From: a virus
Reading direction: 5' to 3' (one strand)
DNA length: 22,254 nucleotides
IMG/VR virus record: IMGVR_UViG_3300010354_000749
Span: 1-22,254 of that record
Shown here: in pieces, positions 4,682 to 15,578 of the stretch
Position numbering within the stretch: the first letter of the stretch is position 1
Layout of the letters: the number at the start of each line of letters is the position of its first letter
Program-made: the position numbers and the translations under genes
The notes under the pieces: generated by a model
The model's database searches: none
What the model saw: only the letters and a program-made list of their open reading frames with translations
Told to the model about the DNA's origin: nothing

Positions 4682-6437
4682 TCTTGTACTCGGAGGCAAG
4701 GGGGCATTTGAAACTGAATCGGTGTCCAGTTTCTTCGGCCACTCGGAGGCATGTCTTTCCGACTTGCTCTTCGTAGCCTTCTTTGACTGCGATCTGTATT
4801 TCGTCATGTATCCATCCTAAGAAGGCGTAGTCGCCATCCCAGCCATGCTTGAGGCCAGAGGCTTTGAGTGCTTCGTCGATGCCTGTGATCCACCCTTTGC
4901 ACAGCACGGCTCCTGCGCTCTGGAGGAGCGTGTTCAGGGCGGCGTGAGAGGAGCGGATGGGCAGGATGCGTCCGTCGAGGCCCTTGAGATATCCTCGGGA
5001 CGCTGCGTTGCTGACGGCTTTCTTGAGGCTCGCTAGAGCGGGTGTTGCCTGGAGGAAGCGTTTTTTGAGTTCGCGTCCTTCACGGGAGCCTTTACCGACG
5101 ATCTTTCCGATCTTTTCATCCCCTGCTCCATACAGGAAGGCATAGATGAAGGTCTTGGCGTTGGCACGGGTTGGGAGACCGGCTGCTTTTTGATTAGCAG
5201 TATGAACGTCACCATCTACGACCTCTCGGGCGTAGGTTCCGTTGTCGAAGGTAGCCATGTAGTGGGCGAGACATCGAAGCTCAAGGCCACTGTAATCTGC
5301 GCCAACAGTTTTCCACCCACGGGGTGTGTAGAACAGTGCACGGCACTCCCGACCGAACTCGGCTTGTACGGAAGGGACTTGAGAAATGTTTGGGTTGCTG
5401 TGTGTAGCTCTTCCAGTAACAGCCCCGTTGGTATTGTAGCTTCCATGTACCTTCCCTTTGCGTTCCAGCTTGATCCACGCTTGGTCCCCCTCGGCCAGTT
5501 GTCCGATGCGCTTCTCCACAAGGAAGAACTCACCCAGCTTCTTGGCTTCAGGGTACTCAAGTTTGCCAAGGACATCTTCGTCGATCTTGGCTTGTCCGGT
5601 AGGTGTGTAGACCTCTGGCTTCCACCCATACTTGGCGATCAGGCACTTCTCGATGTGCTGACGGCTACCTGGGTTGAACACCACGGTCTTCATGTAGGTG
5701 CGGGTGTCCCCGGCTTGGATACCTAGTTTCTTGTTGGGCCTCTTGTAGGTGACAACACGGTCCACCTCTTCCCAAGGATCGAACAGTCCTTGGAGTTCGA
5801 CCTTCAGCTCGTCACGCCGCTGTGCAAGCCTAGCGTACAGCTCCACGGCTCCTTTGACGTCGAAGGGCCACCCATTGTCCTCGATCTTGGCACACAGCTT
5901 CGCAACGCTGTGCTCAAGGTCAACCGAGACTTGGCTGTAGTCCCAAGGCTTCAGGAACTTCCAGAGAGCAAGGGTCACACGAGCGTCATGCTCACAATAC
6001 ACCTGCATCTCAGGGGTCCATTCCTCCCAGCCACCCTCGTACTTCAGCTTGTGGAGACCGACACGCTGGCCCCACGCATCAAGGGAATGTGACCCATAGG
6101 CGTCCTTGGTGATCTGGCCTGTTGCCAGACGGAGGCCGTCCTGCTTTTCGGACTTTATGTCACTGTAGATGAGACGTGAGAGTACCAGCGTGTCAGTCAC
6201 CTTGCCGCGTGGGGTGAACCACGGGAAGAGCTTGGTGATGGCTGGGAGATCGAACTTGATTACGTTGTGGCCGATGAGTTCGTCAGAGTCTTGGAGTTGC
6301 TTTACGCCCGCGTCGATGTCGTTGGGGCCGTAGGACTCCAAGTGACCGCTATCGACATCAAGGGTCACGAGGCAGTGGATGGTTGTGATGGTGTCTAAGA
6401 GGCCGTTCGTTTCAATATCGAACACCAGCCTCGTCAA
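4653..6437 (-). CDS. DNA polymerase, family A, T7 gp5-like
   Basis: A 594-residue replicative DNA polymerase with a proofreading exonuclease, somewhat shorter than T7 gp5 (704). Exonuclease motifs are complete: FDIETNG (Asp7, Glu9), GHNVIKFD (about 56-63) and YCEHDARVTL (about 147-156). Polymerase motif A is GADYSGLELR with Asp381, motif B is RANAKTFIYAFLYG (Arg424, Lys428, Tyr432), and motif C is IHDEIQI (His544, Asp545, Glu546). The residue equivalent to T7 Tyr526 and E. coli Pol I Phe762 is Tyr432. T7 gp5 uses host thioredoxin as clamp; whether this protein does cannot be read from its thumb region here. The ATG at 6437 overlaps the upstream gene by ATGA. Confidence 0.97.
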   Translation of the reverse strand: MTRLVFDIETNGLLDTITTIHCLVTLDVDSGHLESYGPNDIDAGVKQLQDSDELIGHNVIKFDLPAITKLFPWFTPRGKVTDTLVLSRLIYSDIKSEKQDGLRLATGQITKDAYGSHSLDAWGQRVGLHKLKYEGGWEEWTPEMQVYCEHDARVTLALWKFLKPWDYSQVSVDLEHSVAKLCAKIEDNGWPFDVKGAVELYARLAQRRDELKVELQGLFDPWEEVDRVVTYKRPNKKLGIQAGDTRTYMKTVVFNPGSRQHIEKCLIAKYGWKPEVYTPTGQAKIDEDVLGKLEYPEAKKLGEFFLVEKRIGQLAEGDQAWIKLERKGKVHGSYNTNGAVTGRATHSNPNISQVPSVQAEFGRECRALFYTPRGWKTVGADYSGLELRCLAHYMATFDNGTYAREVVDGDVHTANQKAAGLPTRANAKTFIYAFLYGAGDEKIGKIVGKGSREGRELKKRFLQATPALASLKKAVSNAASRGYLKGLDGRILPIRSSHAALNTLLQSAGAVLCKGWITGIDEALKASGLKHGWDGDYAFLGWIHDEIQIAVKEGYEEQVGKTCLRVAEETGHRFSFKCPLASEYKIGSNWAETH

Positions 6438-7134: not shown

Positions 7135-8723
7135 AACACGCTCTCCGTCAATCGTCCGGTCTCCCGGTTGTATGTAAGGGTGCCTGCGCTTCCCACTTCG
7201 CCGGTAAATCGGTTCTTGAGGATACGCAGTTCGGTGCTGTCGGTTGTCTCTTCGTCGGGCTTCTGGAGCGCAATGCAGATGTCAGCCAACTGGGCGACGC
7301 CGTGGGAGCCTCGGAGTTGCCCGAGGTGGACCTTGGCCCCATCTTCGTGGCCCAGGTTGCCTTCAGGTCTCTTGAGGTGGCTGATGACAAACAAGGTGAT
7401 GCCAGTTTCCTGCACGAGGGTGCGGAGCTTGGTCATTGCCATGTCTATGAGCTTCCGTTCGTCACCAGTCGCAAGACCAGACACAAGGATGCTGAGATGA
7501 TCGACAACAATGTGAGTACATCCCAAGGCGCGGGCCATGTACCGGATGCGGTTGATGATGTTGTCCACATCTGTAGAACCAAAGTGGTCGTACAGAGCCA
7601 CATCACGCTCACCAAAAAGATCGTCAAACGCATTGCCAATCTCCTCGTCGCTACTGAGCGCACGGTCCACTAGGATGTTCTTGTTCAGATGAAGGCCCAC
7701 CAAGCCTTGAAGGGTCCGCTTGTTGGACTCCTCAAGCATGATGAGGCCGACCTTGTTACCCGCCGTGTGGAGGGCATAGGCAATCTCACGCACGAAAGTC
7801 GTCTTACCCATCCCAGAGCCGCTGGTGATAACCACAAGTTCTTGAGGACGGATGCCACGGGTGATCTTGTTGAGCGCCGTGAATGGGTACGGGAACCCCA
7901 TTTCGTTGTCGTGAGACAGCACAGTGGACTTTAGGTCCTGGGCCATCACAATGCCGTCTGGGCGATATGGCCTTGCGTTCCACATGGCCTGAACGATCTC
8001 ACCGGCACGACCGGCCACGAGCAGTTCGTTGGGGTCCTTCATGGGAAGGCTTGCGATCTTGACGCGGCCTACCGGGAGGATTTCAGCGACCTTTGAGGCA
8101 GCTTCACGCCCCGGCTCGTCTTGGTCGAACATGAGGACGATCTCTTCAAAGCCATCTAGATAGTCGTAAGACTTCTGAATGGCCTTGACGGCGCTTTGGG
8201 CACCGTTAGGCAGGCTTACCACGGGCCACTTGTTGCCCATGGCTTGGCTGACGGACATTGCGTCTATCTCGCCCTCGGTGATGACGATGCGCTTGCCCTT
8301 GGACCACAAGTGGTCTCCGAAGAGACCCATGGCCTTGGCGTCACCGACGACCTTGAACTTCTTGCCTGCCTTCCTGATCTTTTGGGCGACTACGTGTCCC
8401 AGACGGTCCCGGTAAGGGGCGATGTGGCAAGGCTCTCCGTTATCGTCTCCGGTTTCGTATCCGAAGAGTCGGCAGGTATCTTCGTCGAGGCGTCGATTAG
8501 CAATTGCTCCAATCGTCCCGCGAAGTAACTCGCCGTTTTGTAGTCTCCCTCCAGAATAAAGTGCAACAGAAGACCTATCTTGTCCCTCGCCTCGCTCAAC
8601 GTACTTGCATCCAAAGCAGTAAGCTCCTCCATCGGCGTAACGCGCCAGGTTGTCTTTAGAACCGCAAGATGGACACGGTTCGTGGTGTAGGAATTTTGAT
8701 TCAGTCAGTTCGGCAACTGTCAA
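7131..8723 (-). CDS. DNA primase-helicase, T7 gp4-like
   Basis: A 530-residue bifunctional enzyme that unwinds DNA and makes primers at the fork, close to T7 gp4 (566). The N-terminal zinc ribbon has CPSC (about 16-19) and CFGC (about 37-40). The TOPRIM primase domain has VITEGEIDAMS and, further on, LMFDQDEPG. The RecA-type helicase domain has Walker A GSGMGKTT (about 310), LIMLEESN, Walker B-like HIVVDHLS and a distal FVISHLKRP segment. I chose the TTG at 8723 because AAGGAG lies six bases upstream and the overlap with the methyltransferase is only 23 bases. An upstream start at 8768 would add 15 residues derived from the methyltransferase end. The stop overlaps the next gene's TTG. Confidence 0.96.
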   Translation of the reverse strand: MTVAELTESKFLHHEPCPSCGSKDNLARYADGGAYCFGCKYVERGEGQDRSSVALYSGGRLQNGELLRGTIGAIANRRLDEDTCRLFGYETGDDNGEPCHIAPYRDRLGHVVAQKIRKAGKKFKVVGDAKAMGLFGDHLWSKGKRIVITEGEIDAMSVSQAMGNKWPVVSLPNGAQSAVKAIQKSYDYLDGFEEIVLMFDQDEPGREAASKVAEILPVGRVKIASLPMKDPNELLVAGRAGEIVQAMWNARPYRPDGIVMAQDLKSTVLSHDNEMGFPYPFTALNKITRGIRPQELVVITSGSGMGKTTFVREIAYALHTAGNKVGLIMLEESNKRTLQGLVGLHLNKNILVDRALSSDEEIGNAFDDLFGERDVALYDHFGSTDVDNIINRIRYMARALGCTHIVVDHLSILVSGLATGDERKLIDMAMTKLRTLVQETGITLFVISHLKRPEGNLGHEDGAKVHLGQLRGSHGVAQLADICIALQKPDEETTDSTELRILKNRFTGEVGSAGTLTYNRETGRLTESVF

Positions 8724-9471
8724 CTGTTGCTCCTTGTAGACTGTTATGGCGCAAAAGTGCCGTTCCAATCAGTTCTGGAAACTGTGGGATGACGGCGTTT
8801 CCAAGTTGCTTAAGGCGGTCCAATCGACCGGGAAACCCATCAACCAATCTACCCACGCTGGGTTCAATTGCCCACCAGCCTCGGTCTGCTTCGGCAAGCT
8901 CAATTTTACAGCGTGTGTCAGCATAAACTGCATGTTGCCCCGTATGCTCCCTGCTGCGTCCTCGTTGGCACTCGGGGTAGGCCACAATCCAGATGCGATC
9001 TCTCTGTTTGTGGGGTGCGCCAACGGCGGAAGCGGGTATACAGTGCCACTCCGCATCATACCCGATCTCAGCGAGGCCCCCGAGGACGACTTCCAATCCG
9101 CGAGAGCGAAGGGCTGAGACGTTTTCGATGATCGCGTACTGCGGCCTCGTTTCCTTGATGATGCGGAGCATTTCAAACCAGAGACCGCTTCGCTCCCCTG
9201 CGAGTCCTGCGCCCTTCCCTGCGGTGCTGATGTCTTGGCAGGGGAAGCCTCCGGTGACGACATCAGGTCTAACTCCAATTGCGTTGAGTGTTTCTGCATT
9301 GATACCTTTGACATCATCAAAGACCGGAATATCCGGCCAGTGTTTCTTGAGGACCTTCTGAGCCTTCTTGTCGATCTCGCAGAACGCTACGGTCTCAAAA
9401 CCGCCTGTTCTCTCAAGACCAAGAGAAAAGCCCCCGATCCCTGCAAAGAGGTCGAGGACTTTCAGCTTCAA
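8701..9471 (-). CDS. dcm: DNA (cytosine-5-)-methyltransferase, orphan
   Basis: A complete 256-residue C5-cytosine methyltransferase that transfers a methyl group from S-adenosylmethionine to cytosine in DNA. Motifs in order: I DLFAGIGGFSLGLE (7-20), IV GGFPCQDIS with catalytic Cys78, VI ENVSAL (116-121), VIII QRDRIWIVAY (156-165) and IX-X VGRLVDGFPGRLDRLKQLGNA (about 206-226). The target-recognition region between VIII and IX is very short, so the recognised sequence cannot be guessed. No cognate restriction enzyme is seen. It probably protects phage DNA from host restriction or modifies the genome for regulation. It overlaps the upstream HTH gene by ATGA and the downstream primase by 23 bases. 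Confidence 0.95.
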   Translation of the reverse strand: MKLKVLDLFAGIGGFSLGLERTGGFETVAFCEIDKKAQKVLKKHWPDIPVFDDVKGINAETLNAIGVRPDVVTGGFPCQDISTAGKGAGLAGERSGLWFEMLRIIKETRPQYAIIENVSALRSRGLEVVLGGLAEIGYDAEWHCIPASAVGAPHKQRDRIWIVAYPECQRGRSREHTGQHAVYADTRCKIELAEADRGWWAIEPSVGRLVDGFPGRLDRLKQLGNAVIPQFPELIGTALLRHNSLQGATVDSCRTD

Positions 9472-10868: not shown

Positions 10869-11194
10869 TAATGGAACTCCTTGGATGGCATCAGTGAGAG
10901 TTGTCTCTCGACCTCGATGCCGATGATGGTTGGATCAAGTCCCACGCTCTGCATGAGAGCTAGGTGGGACATACGGAAGCCAGAGAAGCGAAGGCCATAG
11001 GCCGTCATCTGCTCCACCAAGTCCCGAATGTTGGGGTCAGGGTGCTCTAGCCACTCGCGGTAATCAGGCGAAGGCGTAGAGCGAGTTGATAACTTGGGTG
11101 AGGTCGAGGTTCCCTCTGGCGGGGACCTCTGGGGTTTTGGTTTTGTCTTCGAGTGCCTTTTCGGTTTGATACCTAATCTCCTCAAAAGGGTCAT
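10868..11194 (-). CDS. Hypothetical protein (up to 108 aa), start uncertain
   Basis: The convincing part of this protein is the C-terminal 65 residues or so (DYREWLEHPDPNIRDLVEQM, then TAYGLRFSGFRMSHLALMQ and a helix ending LSLMPSKEFH), which looks like a small helical phage protein. The open frame reaches an ATG at 11194, but that start overlaps the conserved RNA polymerase C-terminus by 131 bases and gives a Lys/Pro/Ser-rich leader. The only later starts are TTG 11017, GTG 11014 and ATG 11005, the last with GGTGGAG closely upstream, giving 45 to 49 residues. Neither choice is ideal; the 3' end and frame are better supported than the start. Function unknown. Confidence 0.5.
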   Translation of the reverse strand: MTLLRRLGIKPKRHSKTKPKPQRSPPEGTSTSPKLSTRSTPSPDYREWLEHPDPNIRDLVEQMTAYGLRFSGFRMSHLALMQSVGLDPTIIGIEVERQLSLMPSKEFH

Positions 11195-13592
11195 AGTTCT
11201 CGTACATCTCCACGAAGGCTTCGCGGATGATCTGGAAGAACTTTGTGGTGTTACCGGCGTGGGTTCCGAAACTGTCGTGGATGAGGCTGAAGGAACTGAT
11301 GTCCTGTTCCTGTGAGGCCAGCACGGTCAGCATGAGGTGGCTTGCATCAAGCGAATGGATGATGTTTGGAGCTACTGCGCTCTTGGCCTTGTCCTTGTTG
11401 ATGTGCTCGTTGGGACGGACCCTGATACGCGCACGGAGAGCCTTGAGAACATCATCACCGTCCACCTTGTCATCAGACTTGGCGTTCACCACAGGGACGC
11501 TCTGATCGTACAGGAAGAGTTTGACCGTCTTCATGTCCCAATCAGTGTACTTGTGGAGCACAGGGAGGCCGATGGGAGTGACCCACGATAACCCTTTGCG
11601 CTCGTGAGCGAGAACCTGGGCGCACCTCTGGAAGAACTTCATGCCTTCCGAGGCGTCCTTGACGATCTCGTTCACAGCTCTCCACACTACCTTGGCGATG
11701 TAGAGTGATGCCTTGAAGCCATTGTCCAAGCCGTAAGGGTGATCGACTAGCTGTCCCTCAAGAACCTTAAGAGCCAACGGCTGCATCAGGTCCTCTCGTT
11801 GCTGCTGGGCGAACCCGAACTGCTCAGAGGAATACGCAAAGGTCATTACGTTGCGCTTGACCAGTGACCTCGTGACACCGTTAGCCAGCACGACCGTGGC
11901 AATCTGCTCACCTTTGGCCGCATCTGCTTCCACGATGCCCTTGGCGCGGTCACAGACAGCCTGATAGACGTCCGCAGGCTGGTCAGATGGCGTAAGGCAC
12001 ACCAAGGCTCCTTCAGGACTCCTGAGAGCCGCTGAGTAGTGCTGGAGGCCCGAGTTGGAGCCGTCCAAAGCCACCGCGATGTGACTTACGTGGTCAAAGC
12101 CATCCTTCAAAAACCCAGCATAGTCCAAACACGCTGCAAGGAACTGGAAGGGAGCATCGGCTTTGCCCCAGAGGTCGAAGTTTTCGTAGGGGTTCGTAGC
12201 GATCCTTACGATCAAGTCGTGGTTGGCCGTTACCCACTCCACTCGATAGTCCAGCGACTTCTTGGAGAGCTTGTCGAAGTCCCCACAGTTGGCGAGGTGG
12301 ACCGCAAGCCAATAAGCCCCTTCGTCACCGAGGGGGATACCCTCCGCAAACTCAAGAAGCCCTTTGATGTGATCCGCTCTCTGCTGGTTGAAGTGGGGAA
12401 CGGGATAGACACGTCCACGGAAGTCCAGCGAGTGCGGGATGTAGAACCCGTGGACGCTGGCGAGTTCGTCAGCTACCGCGAGGTCCTGAAGCATCACCAC
12501 GCGCTCTCCGTCGATCCCCCGGTTGCGTTCCGCGATCTTGGAGACCCTAATCCGCCACGCCTTCTTCTCGTTGTCAGTCAGAGTTTCCCACGTCTCGGGA
12601 CGCGCTGGCTTCTTCAGGTGGAACCGTTGCGGGAAGCTGTCGAGAGTCACCCCTCGGTCCCATGCCCACTTGACAACCTCAAGCATCGGCTGGTTGATCC
12701 GCCATCGCGTACCTTGGATGGCGTTCAGAGCCTCAAGGCACGGCTGCATCACTCCGCTGGCAATCGCTTGCTTGACCATCGCCTTGTGCTCTCGGTTCCA
12801 GGTACGGACCAAAGGCACGTTTCGGCTTAATGACTCGGAGAGGTAACAGCCTGTGTCGAAGGACACCCAAGGCTTCGGGGGGACAACCATTGGCTTGTAG
12901 ACGGGGTACATCCACGCCTCCAGTCCCGTGAGTTCGTCAAGCAGGCTTGAGCCGTCTTGGGTCAACCCTATGCGCCGCTCAGGCTCCTTGTTGGCATGGA
13001 CCGAGTACAGCATGAACACCCCCGCACAGCCTTGGAGGACTGCGTTGACCAGAGGTGCCCCTATGTTGGCTCGGACATCGTTGGTCAGCGGATCGGGCTG
13101 ATAGCCCTCCTTGGCCGCTGTGGCGCGAATGGCCTTGCGCCTGTACCCGATGTTGCCGTGGGTCTTCATGGCGCGTTCCACAAGGCGTTCGTAAAGCCCA
13201 CTGTCGCGGCTTTTGAGACCCTGCGCCCACAGTTCGTTCTCAACCATACGGCCTGCACTGATGCACACCTGAGACACTGTGGACTGACGGCCAAGGCCGT
13301 TGAACACAGCCGAAAGAGCTATCAGTGCTAACGTATCGACCTCAAGGTCTTTGAGATAACCATAAGCAACTGGAGACTTCCCTTTGCCAGAGTTTGAGGC
13401 TGTCTCTAGGTAATACGTAAGTTCACTTACGACATCCTTAAGACAACCTTTAATGATCTTCTTTGAGGTAGAAGTAGAATCATTCCCTTGGTCTTCCTTA
13501 AGTCTCTCTTGTTGTCTTAAGTATCTTTCGTATCCCTCCTGCAAACTCTGTGTTTCGAGATGTATCTGACGTTCCTGTAGATCAAAAGACAT
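11064..13592 (-). CDS. DNA-directed RNA polymerase, single-subunit T7-like
   Basis: An 842-residue phage RNA polymerase, complete and near T7 size (883). It transcribes middle and late genes from phage promoters without host subunits. Landmarks: LDFRGRVYP (389-397), metal-binding VALDGSNSGLQHYSA with Asp510, the fingers segment NGVTRSLVKRNVMTFAY with Lys579 and Tyr587, and LIHDSFGT with His772 and Asp773. The C-terminus ends SLYAFA, like the T7 'foot' FAFA. The specificity-loop region (about 675-695) differs from T7, so promoters will differ. ATG 13592 has AAGGGG about eight bases upstream. It is the first gene after attP and its terminator. Confidence 0.98.
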   Translation of the reverse strand: MSFDLQERQIHLETQSLQEGYERYLRQQERLKEDQGNDSTSTSKKIIKGCLKDVVSELTYYLETASNSGKGKSPVAYGYLKDLEVDTLALIALSAVFNGLGRQSTVSQVCISAGRMVENELWAQGLKSRDSGLYERLVERAMKTHGNIGYRRKAIRATAAKEGYQPDPLTNDVRANIGAPLVNAVLQGCAGVFMLYSVHANKEPERRIGLTQDGSSLLDELTGLEAWMYPVYKPMVVPPKPWVSFDTGCYLSESLSRNVPLVRTWNREHKAMVKQAIASGVMQPCLEALNAIQGTRWRINQPMLEVVKWAWDRGVTLDSFPQRFHLKKPARPETWETLTDNEKKAWRIRVSKIAERNRGIDGERVVMLQDLAVADELASVHGFYIPHSLDFRGRVYPVPHFNQQRADHIKGLLEFAEGIPLGDEGAYWLAVHLANCGDFDKLSKKSLDYRVEWVTANHDLIVRIATNPYENFDLWGKADAPFQFLAACLDYAGFLKDGFDHVSHIAVALDGSNSGLQHYSAALRSPEGALVCLTPSDQPADVYQAVCDRAKGIVEADAAKGEQIATVVLANGVTRSLVKRNVMTFAYSSEQFGFAQQQREDLMQPLALKVLEGQLVDHPYGLDNGFKASLYIAKVVWRAVNEIVKDASEGMKFFQRCAQVLAHERKGLSWVTPIGLPVLHKYTDWDMKTVKLFLYDQSVPVVNAKSDDKVDGDDVLKALRARIRVRPNEHINKDKAKSAVAPNIIHSLDASHLMLTVLASQEQDISSFSLIHDSFGTHAGNTTKFFQIIREAFVEMYENYDPFEEIRYQTEKALEDKTKTPEVPARGNLDLTQVINSLYAFA

Positions 13593-13691
13593 CGACGGCC
13601 CCTTGTTTTCTGCGTAACTCTACCTTTTAGCTTTTTAATGTAGTGTCAGGTACTTAGCAGGCTAGTGTTGACAATCGGTAACTGTAGACTC
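13593..13691 (-). other. RNA polymerase leader region, promoter not identified
   Basis: This short AT-richer gap separates the attP-side terminator from the RNA polymerase start. It holds the AAGGGG ribosome-binding site and a CCTGACACTACATTA stretch at about 13650-13636 whose TGACACTA core matches the SP6-type promoter core. No convincing sigma-70 promoter with a good -35, spacing and -10 was found on the minus strand. Expression of the polymerase gene presumably begins here, but the site cannot be fixed by eye. Confidence 0.3.
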
Positions 13692-13714
13692 AAAAGGGGG
13701 TGTGTTATCCCCCC
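13692..13714 (-). terminator. Putative rho-independent terminator between integrase/attP and RNA polymerase
   Basis: Read on the minus strand, five or six G, an eight-base A/C-rich loop and five C are followed directly by TTTT, giving a GC-only stem with a short U-tract. The 5' arm overlaps the integrase stop codon. It would end transcripts coming from the integrase side, or, after integration, from the host tRNA-Leu promoter, before the RNA polymerase gene. The stem is short, so efficiency is uncertain. Confidence 0.6.
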
Positions 13715-14934
13715 TCCATGTACGGTTCAGATTGCTCTAAGGTCTTGAGATCGCTCAGAAGATTGGCGGAACCTAAATCCTGCGTGTCTGCCAATTTCAC
13801 CACGCCCGCAATGCGTATCGCCGGTATCGCAACCTTCGGGGGAGGCAGAGGGCAACGGGATGTGCCTTTCGCCGTCCTTGGGTTGCTGGCGGTAGGCGCA
13901 GCGATGTCGGGAATGGCCCTGTACCCCACCGTGGGGGATGTGTCTAGTACCCCGTGGAGGAAGTTTTCCGCCTGTGAAAAAGCCCCACTTAGCATCGAGT
14001 CTGACACCTGGGCATAGCGGATCGTCGTCTCGATCCTTTTGTGTCCAAGCCACTGTTGTACTAGGCGAAGGTTCACGTTTGCTTGGACTAATCTTGTCGC
14101 GCAGGTGTGACGGGTGACGTGGAAGGTAAACCACGGGTCCCCCTCCAGACCCATCGCCGCTCGGGCCTTCTCCCACTGATACCTCAAGACATGCTCGGTC
14201 GGCATTCCGACATCCAGAAGCCACATCAGGTCCTCATAGGTCCGTGGGCCAATAGGGACAGAGCGTGGCACCTTGGTCTTGGTCTTCCACAGCCTTACCC
14301 ACCCCGGCTCCACCTGCGTCCGCTCAAGGCTCAGAAGCTCTCCACGCCGCATCCCCGTGGCGATGGCTACGCGGGTCAGCACCGAGACCTCATCGGACAA
14401 CAGCGAGAGGAGCTTCGGTTCCTCGTCTTCGGTGATCCACCGGATGCGTCCTTGGTCCTCGTCCTGCCACGGGAACACCGGAAGCTCGGTGAGCCAGCGC
14501 CGGTCCCTGCCCCACGTCAGGAGCTTGTGGAGCGCACTGAGGTACTTGTTAATGGTCGAGGTCTCCAAGCCCTCGTCAGCAAGCGTAGCGACCACCCTGT
14601 CCAGACGGTCGGTCGTGATGCCGTCCAGAAGCGTCTCAGGACCACACAGGGCGACCATGCGATCCAGACGGGTCTCGGTCAGCTCCCGGCTACGCTTGCC
14701 CTTCCACAAGGCTCCCTCGGCCCGCGCAACGAGGTCCTTGAGACGCTTGGGGACACCTCGGGTATCCTCACGGGTCTTGGCAGTCTCGGGGAAGGCTTGC
14801 AGCCACGCGGACTCTGCCTTGCGGGCTTCCTCAATGGTGTCGAAGCGGCCCCGCGCCCGCTTGCCGTTGACCTGCACCTCCACGCGCCAGCGGCCCGTGG
14901 GCTTGCCGTACTTCTTGTCAGCGTAGATCGCCAT
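13705..14934 (-). CDS. int: Tyrosine site-specific integrase
   Basis: A 409-residue tyrosine recombinase that would integrate the phage into the host chromosome. Catalytic residues are complete: Arg196 (TGMRRGEL), Lys219 (WKTKTK), His272-x-x-Arg275 (FHVTRHT), His298 (WLGHKRIETT) and nucleophile Tyr307 (IRYAQVSD). The N-terminus has an arm-binding-like strand region (RWRVEVQVNGKRARGRF) and a SAM-like core-binding domain (about 65-150). The enzyme proper ends near 330. The last 30 or so codons (AGVVKLADTQDLGSANLL onward) are a translation through the tRNA-Leu-derived attP core, so the natural C-terminus would change on integration. ATG 14934 overlaps the regulator gene by 17 bases, implying one operon. 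Confidence 0.95.
   Translation of the reverse strand: MAIYADKKYGKPTGRWRVEVQVNGKRARGRFDTIEEARKAESAWLQAFPETAKTREDTRGVPKRLKDLVARAEGALWKGKRSRELTETRLDRMVALCGPETLLDGITTDRLDRVVATLADEGLETSTINKYLSALHKLLTWGRDRRWLTELPVFPWQDEDQGRIRWITEDEEPKLLSLLSDEVSVLTRVAIATGMRRGELLSLERTQVEPGWVRLWKTKTKVPRSVPIGPRTYEDLMWLLDVGMPTEHVLRYQWEKARAAMGLEGDPWFTFHVTRHTCATRLVQANVNLRLVQQWLGHKRIETTIRYAQVSDSMLSGAFSQAENFLHGVLDTSPTVGYRAIPDIAAPTASNPRTAKGTSRCPLPPPKVAIPAIRIAGVVKLADTQDLGSANLLSDLKTLEQSEPYMEGG
13768..13809 (-). other. attP: attP core: 5' half of a tRNA-Leu(UAG) gene
   Basis: Forty-two bases on the minus strand read as the 5' half of a bacterial tRNA-Leu: acceptor strand GCGGGCG, D-arm with GAAATTGGCAGACACG, and the anticodon loop TTTAGGT (anticodon UAG) with the first three bases of the returning stem (TCC). 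After that the sequence no longer pairs with the 5' stem, and no variable arm, T-loop (TTCGA) or acceptor 3' strand follows, so this is not a complete tRNA gene. A partial tRNA next to an integrase is the classic mark of attP. The cyanopodovirus P-SSP7 has a similar integrase plus tRNA-Leu match. The exact core ends need the host sequence. Confidence 0.85.
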
Positions 14935-15280
14935 GGTGGTTCATCTTCTGTGCAATGTTGTTGATGAGGAAACGACCGCGCTCGGAGAGTGTGTATTGGT
15001 TCTTCCGCAGTTCCATCGGGTCTTGACGACATTCGATCAACTTGTACCCCGGCTCCATTCGACGGTTTCGGGGTCCCAAGTCAATCAAATGGCGGCTCAT
15101 TGTGGGCGTTTTGGTCTTTGAAACCTCCACGAGTTCTTTGAGGCTCGTGCCTTCGTGCATGGCGACCGACAAAAAGGCCAGTATTTGCTGGACCGGCATC
15201 GTCGGGCTGATCTTCTTGAACTCTTCCAATACTGTGTAAAGTCTGTGAAGATCACTGTGATTTGAGTTAGGTTGCGACAC
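14918..15280 (-). CDS. Winged-helix transcriptional regulator (MarR-like)
   Basis: A 120-residue DNA-binding protein. The domain runs from a helix (LYTVLEEFKKIS) through MPVQQILAFLSVAMHEGTSLKELVEVSKTK, where the recognition region TPTMSRHLIDL has the MarR-type pattern, to a wing and YTLSERGRFLINNIAQ. I chose GTG 15280 because GGAG lies six bases upstream and a promoter ends near 15307. The ATG at 15307 would add nine residues but sits on the promoter and has no ribosome-binding site. It is the first gene of the lysogeny operon, overlapping integrase by 17 bases. It may repress its own promoter or control integrase and lysogeny; this is inference from position. Confidence 0.82.
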   Translation of the reverse strand: MSQPNSNHSDLHRLYTVLEEFKKISPTMPVQQILAFLSVAMHEGTSLKELVEVSKTKTPTMSRHLIDLGPRNRRMEPGYKLIECRQDPMELRKNQYTLSERGRFLINNIAQKMNHHGDLR

Positions 15281-15306
15281 TTGAAACTCCGTTTCTAGAC
15301 AAAGCA

Positions 15307-15335
15307 TTGGTACAGAAACATTCTACAGGTGTCAA
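15307..15335 (-). promoter_or_regulatory. Putative sigma-70 promoter for the regulator-integrase operon
   Basis: On the minus strand a perfect -35 TTGACA (15335-15330) is followed by 17 bases and TACCAA (15312-15307), a weak -10. Transcription would start near 15300 and give a leader of about 20 bases carrying GGAG before the GTG start at 15280. It lies directly after a strong terminator, as expected for an independent host-type promoter. The poor -10 suggests a weak or regulated promoter. Confidence 0.5.
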
Positions 15336-15339
15336 CTGT
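15325..15339. promoter_or_regulatory. Putative operator palindrome overlapping the -35 box
   Basis: The 15-base sequence ACAGGTGTCAACTGT reads ACAG-x-TG-n-CA-x-CTGT, a near-perfect inverted repeat with a single mismatched pair. It completely covers the -35 hexamer of the promoter just upstream of the regulator gene. A dimeric winged-helix protein bound there would block RNA polymerase, so the site is a good candidate for autorepression by the regulator encoded at 15280-14918. Confidence 0.5.
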
Positions 15340-15341
15340 CC

Positions 15342-15370
15342 AAAAACACCGATCCCCGTTGGGGGACCGG
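15342..15370 (-). terminator. Rho-independent terminator after the lysis genes
   Basis: On the minus strand CCGGTCCCC, a four-base loop and GGGGATCGG form a nine-pair stem (one G-T pair), followed by TGTTTTT. It lies just downstream of the outer-spanin stop and just upstream of the promoter of the lysogeny operon, separating late lysis transcription from the regulator-integrase module. Confidence 0.85.
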
Positions 15371-15377
15371 CGTTGCG

Positions 15378-15578
15378 TTACTTGCATAGCGCCTTGTAGG
15401 CGGCATTGTGGGACTTGACCTCCTTGATGGTCTGGTCAGTGTCTTCCTTAGACCACGAGATTGGCCTCATGGTCATGCAGGTTGACTTAATCCCGTTTCC
15501 AGCCATCGTTGTCGCGCAACCTGTCAGCAGGAGCACGCTCAACAGCAGCACGGGCGCGGCTAGTTGCTTCGATAGCAT
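15378..15578 (-). CDS. Outer-membrane spanin (Rz1-like lipoprotein)
   Basis: A 66-residue predicted lipoprotein: MLSKQLAAPVLLLSVLLLTGC carries a basic start, a hydrophobic core and a lipobox with Cys21, giving a mature chain of 46 residues. The mature part has the pattern seen in many small phage lysis proteins, with a cysteine, RPISWSKEDTD, a helix with KEVKSHNAAY and a terminal cysteine (ALCK). It would sit on the inner face of the outer membrane and pair with the inner spanin to fuse the membranes at lysis. Its first part overlaps the inner-spanin gene in another frame, the usual Rz/Rz1 arrangement. ATG 15578 was chosen because it starts the signal peptide. Confidence 0.78.
   Translation of the reverse strand: MLSKQLAAPVLLLSVLLLTGCATTMAGNGIKSTCMTMRPISWSKEDTDQTIKEVKSHNAAYKALCK

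Follow-up and report, generated by a model that had tools for sequence, protein, structure and literature searches.

For a long time T7-like phages were regarded as strictly lytic. Yet two of them, P-SSP7 and S-TIP37, have been shown by PCR to integrate at tRNA-Leu; S-TIP37 requires both int and attP to do so, and the two phages integrate without stable lysogeny (PMC8776855). In the genome of P-SSP7, as read here, the order is regulator, int, tRNA-Leu 5′ half and RNA polymerase in the same orientation, the core being the 5′ half of a tRNA-Leu(UAA)-type gene that ends in the anticodon loop. HTVC105P, a Pelagibacter phage (Pelagivirus), likewise carries a tRNA-Leu 5′ half between int and the RNA polymerase gene (RNAP). 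In the temperate-like Autographiviridae phage LUZ100 of Pseudomonas a MarR-int operon is expressed from a host promoter, with a terminator after int and RNAP next (PMC10134795). Elements that target tRNA genes usually employ the 3′ part of the gene; use of the 5′ part is documented but rarer (PMC6563490).

The DNA analysed here (the window) is a linear virus record, a linear fragment of 22,254 bases, and it has the marks of the P-SSP7 type. Its T7-like genes include those for a single-subunit RNA polymerase, a DnaB-type primase-helicase and PolA, together with a lysozyme and a major head protein, and one strand, the minus strand, carries in order a transcriptional regulator, int, the putative attP and RNA polymerase, as in P-SSP7. 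The tyrosine integrase of 409 amino acids is encoded at 13705–14934 (minus strand; Pfam PF00589, 8.8e-22; phrog_1, 3.1e-53). Its catalytic part ends near residue 325, and the reading frame runs on through the core. Directly upstream lies a small transcriptional regulator (14918–15307, minus strand; phrog_9665 transcriptional regulator, 3.3e-25) that is conserved beside int in the relatives and takes the position of the MarR-like regulator in P-SSP7, LUZ100 and HTVC105P. The first gene past attP is the T7-like RNA polymerase (11064–13592, minus strand; PF00940, 7e-97; phrog_414, 3.7e-213). A C-5 cytosine DNA methyltransferase (PF00145) is found among the replication genes at 8701–9471 (minus strand).

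The core itself is GCGGGCGTGGTGAAATTGGCAGACACGCAGGATTTAGGTTCC at 13809–13768 on the minus strand, 42 nt that correspond to tRNA-Leu(UAG) from position 1 to the third base of the returning anticodon stem. The last part of it, GGATTTAGGTTCC (13768–13780, minus strand), comprises the anticodon loop with 3 bp of stem on each side and is the likely crossover zone. The initial annotation had placed an attP core inside the integrase reading frame as the 5′ half of tRNA-Leu, and comparison with related phages bears this out. Three IMG/VR relatives (L087, L088 and L089) have the identical 42-mer in the equivalent position; their integrases are ~46–51% identical to that of the window (they are labelled L025, L071 and L053 in that alignment). 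When the DNA of the four phages is aligned the invariant run is exactly the 42 columns of the core, while the flanks are unalignable. Thus the core is not a chance match. Moreover, joining the half in the window to the Leu(UAG) 3′ half of a close integrase relative, L091, generates a perfect tRNA-Leu(UAG) fold of 85 nt. The window yields no complete tRNA with either ARAGORN or Rfam, in keeping with its carrying only a half. A nucleotide search of phages with positions 13500–15500 returned a single match, of 43 bp to a faecal contig, and this was rejected as it is a complete tRNA-Leu of other sequence. Ten relatives in the attP form have a tRNA-Leu 5′ half at this location between int and RNAP. 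The pair L087 and L088 differ at 64 of the first 330 integrase codons and at none of the 41 codons 343–383, a stretch that corresponds to the core plus ~80 nt before it; this hints at a constraint on the DNA beside the core.

Relatives of the integrase were found in Novosphingobium, Sphingomonas and Polymorphobacter by scanning bacterial genomes with the integrase alignment. Prophages are present in four isolates of the Sphingomonadales, Polymorphobacter arshaanensis, Sphingomonas desiccabilis, S. asaccharolytica and Sphingomonas sp. BK580, with integrases that are 38–41% identical to that of the window. Each genome contains two copies of the tRNA-Leu(UAG) 5′ half, spaced by 42.6, 44.3, 44.8 and 45.2 kb in the four. 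At attL host sequence leads into the tRNA 5′ half, and the phage RNAP gene follows 256–449 nt on, in the same direction. At attR int is followed by the phage 5′ half and then the host 3′ half, giving a complete tRNA. Joining the flanks in silico generated an intact, canonical tRNA-Leu(UAG) in all four lysogens. A second Leu(UAG) gene was sought in each lysogen genome and none was found, the other matches having the anticodon CAG. The host site is a single unbroken match in 38 of 40 other Sphingomonas genomes (this set, like those searched for the 42-mer, is a partial sample of the taxon), one of them being 96% identical over all 405 nt, and the S. asaccharolytica lysogen matches this unbroken site in two pieces only, which overlap at 161–205, the 5′ half. 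In S. desiccabilis nucleotide 16 of the tRNA is the host C in attL but the phage T in attR, and the identity of attL and attR ends again at nucleotide 41. The crossover therefore occurred between nucleotides 16 and 41 of the tRNA, and because nucleotide 16 of attR is the phage T the rebuilt tRNA carries phage sequence. It had been proposed that integration would place, downstream of int, a host tRNA whose 5′ half comes from the phage, and these four natural prophages show just that. Their split sites are exactly as predicted, while the host tRNA of the window phage itself was not found, there being no match to the exact 42-mer in 385 alphaproteobacteria, nor with up to one mismatch in 398 Pseudomonadota. 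AGTCyGCAATyGCAGACT-like palindromes are repeated within 60 nt after the attL core in the three Sphingomonas prophages (L168, L169 and L174) and are possible integrase arm sites or operators; none was seen in the window, and a search for repeats near the start of its RNAP gene, as possible operator or arm sites, revealed nothing convincing.

It is highly probable that 13809–13768 is the attP identity block of a temperate, or at least integration-capable, T7-like phage that integrates into tRNA-Leu(UAG) and supplies the 5′ half. The integrase would recombine the anticodon arm of the host tRNA-Leu(UAG) gene with the phage copy. After integration the complete tRNA would lie downstream of the regulator and int genes at attR, with the host promoter and the orphaned 5′ half upstream of the phage RNAP gene at attL. 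The junctions, the rebuilt tRNA, the sole Leu(UAG) gene found and the geometry come from the relatives, and the core, the gene order and the hairpin discussed below from the window; from these we infer that the window phage would integrate in the same way in its own host. Could the half instead be a functionless remnant of a host tRNA captured in the past, in a phage that is now strictly lytic? T7-like cyanophages with such sites gave no stable lysogens (PMC8776855), and the tRNA-Leu near int in LUZ100 was taken as a relic by its authors (PMC10134795). However, exact retention of 42 nt across phages with ~50% identical integrases requires selection, the integrase reading frame of the window is intact with its catalytic residues conserved, and relatives are found integrated at the tRNA 5′ half. 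A relic is therefore very unlikely. Phages do carry tRNA genes for translation or counter-defence, and the 5′ half is transcribed in the direction of int, so it might serve such a purpose rather than integration, for example in mimicry or repair of cleaved tRNA. But half a tRNA is no tRNA gene, it adjoins int, and the junctions of the relatives fall within the 5′ half, making this explanation extremely improbable.

The identity block is also read as protein in the window. It spans integrase codons 376–389, translated as AGVVKLADTQDLGS, and 20 further residues follow; these last 20 codons and the stop (13705–13767, minus strand) are the part that could be exchanged on integration. The initial annotation expected the final 30 or so residues to change. 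Such an exchange is seen in Polymorphobacter, where comparison of the int 3′ ends shows that the frame ends 63 nt after base 1 of the tRNA in the reconstructed attP but 123 nt after it in attR, making the latter form 20 amino acids longer; the part beyond the core in the window is 20 residues, not about 30. Integration, in replacing these 20 residues, might act as a functional switch, with attP and attR forms of the integrase differing in activity or stability. The swap is real by sequence in that one natural lysogen, and the int frames of 10 of the 20 members with 5′-half polarity enter the tRNA. The other 10 stop before the core, by 22–35 nt in S. desiccabilis, S. asaccharolytica and BK580. 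Moreover, the reading frame across the core differs between relatives, giving GVVKLAD or GVAELVDA in the window, L075 and L097, and GRG..GRxAxFR in L087, L088, L089, L122 and L043. The tails of the integrases are unconserved, and residues 317–409 of that of the window are predicted to be disordered (pLDDT < 50 in a structure model based on an alignment of only seven sequences). A functional switch is thus very unlikely. With half of these relatives stopping early, others using another frame and a tail predicted to be disordered, the change is unlikely to matter. Most likely the extension of the integrase frame across the core is a by-product of int being packed against its own site.

Integration has potential consequences for transcription on both sides of the site. 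In the three Sphingomonas a host promoter motif TTGCTC-N15/16-TATAGA lies 23–26 nt before the tRNA and after integration faces the RNAP gene; such promoters do not stand out singly against background, and were accepted only since the three share the motif at this distance. Between the core and RNAP of the window there is a terminator-like hairpin (13687–13715, minus strand), AGGGGGG-ATAACACA-CCCCCT followed by TTTGAGTC, with the int stop codon inside it. In our own scan none of 100 shuffles was as good, and a stricter terminator scan did not flag it. A terminator-like hairpin occurs in this interval in 12 of 18 sites examined, including the window and all four lysogens. Thus the idea that the host tRNA promoter would point into the phage agrees with the attL geometry of the four relatives, but with a hairpin usually placed before RNAP transcription from this promoter is unlikely to extend far. 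Before the phage-borne 5′ half no promoter scored clearly above shuffles, bar weak ones in Polymorphobacter and L093. Because most members have no convincing promoter there, the rebuilt tRNA may depend on read-through from regulator and int; it would be transcribed from the phage side, by such read-through or from a weak promoter within int. In LUZ100 read-through of the terminator after the MarR-int operon has been proposed as the start of RNAP synthesis (PMC10134795). Since the att site sits between the regulator-int operon and RNAP, integration would remove this input, unplugging RNAP from the phage operon; a terminator would then separate RNAP from the host promoter.

Integration might then act to switch transcription. 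Before it, in the free phage, transcription of the regulator-int operon would run on toward RNAP through a leaky terminator. On integration that link would be cut and the only tRNA-Leu(UAG) of the cell would come to lie at the end of the regulator-int operon, the lysogen needing the lysogeny operon of the phage for an essential tRNA while the host promoter idled into the terminator. We regard the full switch as possible, though on balance doubtful. The 5′-half geometry nevertheless offers a testable answer to how integrase-bearing T7-like prophages keep the RNAP gene quiet, as integration would change the upstream context of RNAP and move an apparently single-copy host tRNA behind the lysogeny genes of the phage. 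A gene on the host side of attR (L195–L197) has tRNA-Leu(UAG) immediately before it, in the Sphingomonas lysogens as in their congeners. Its protein starts with MQTVETLNEGLKRAY and may be trigger factor; integration may also part this gene from the tRNA promoter.

How fixed is the polarity of the site? The view that a 5′ half is unusual for a tRNA att site is true in general (PMC6563490), but in this group of phages it is the usual arrangement. Between int and RNAP, where the 5′ half stands in the window, L091 (5500–5700) and L092 instead have a tRNA-Leu(UAG) 3′ half, and GGATTTAGGTTCC is common to both polarities at Leu(UAG). In the Novosphingobium relatives L076, L077, L079 and L096, int is followed by the 3′ half of tRNA-Cys. 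On the integrase tree, at least three changes are needed between the 3′ half and other states. The sharing of GGATTTAGGTTCC by both polarities is consistent with an integrase whose substrate is the symmetric anticodon arm, such that either half could then be carried by the phage. The element in L079 measures only about 6.4 kb, with a complete tRNA-Cys at 731 as its boundary. In L111 the 5′ half of tRNA-Leu(CAA) comes after int at 5676, and about 370 nt beyond it, at 6044–6127, the tRNA-Leu(CAA) is complete; in L103 the same integrase is followed directly by the complete tRNA. A second element in one site is a possible reading. In another T7-like phage, the Desulfovibrio phage ProddE (L181), an apparent tRNA 3′ half lies antisense to int at ~2280–2340, beside a CI-like repressor, and is thus of the usual polarity. 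Named isolates with mapped junctions are now at hand, and the flips between 5′ and 3′ halves among relatives allow a natural comparison.

Set against other integration strategies, the locus differs in several respects. In the integration-dependent immunity of mycobacteriophages attP lies within the repressor gene, and integration changes the repressor; in the window it is int, rather than the regulator, that contains attP. Lysogeny that depends on tRNA is marked by a core of ~10 bp, a tRNA that is not rebuilt and a complete tRNA of the same isotype on the phage (PMC10865867). Here the core is 42 nt, the tRNA is rebuilt in the relatives, and the 22-kb window has no tRNA gene. L002 (IMG isolate 2718218194) is the only phage with a complete tRNA-Leu between int and RNAP, an 85-nt tRNA-Leu(UAG) at 5149–5233; it is identical to that of Sphingomonas hosts, so that integration would leave two complete genes. 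Elements that recombine with the 5′-distal part of a tRNA gene were described by Zhao and Williams (2002), as cited in PMC6563490. From what is cited there, such elements replace the target's 5′ part, so that the usual orientation is reversed. The same is found here: the window carries the 5′ part, and in the four relatives the intact gene is on the int side with an orphan promoter at the other end. What differs is that the element is a T7-like phage, with its RNAP gene on the side of the orphaned promoter. In the literature searched, the key early papers on P-SSP7 and on reversed elements being outside its scope, we found no statement on the 5′-half polarity or its effect on RNAP.

A tRNA-Leu attP downstream of int is already known in T7-like phages, and the window phage joins the P-SSP7 type. 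LUZ100 is the more distant in arrangement, having a complete tRNA-Leu upstream of int on the opposite strand and no Leu half that we recognised between int and RNAP. HTVC105P shares with the window the order of MarR regulator, integrase, tRNA-Leu 5′ half (UAA in its case) and RNAP, but its int is annotated to stop before the core and its integrase is only about 29% identical. Compared with P-SSP7 and S-TIP37, the window is distinguished by the anticodon UAG, by an int frame that enters the core, and by alphaproteobacterial relatives that exist as prophages in isolates.
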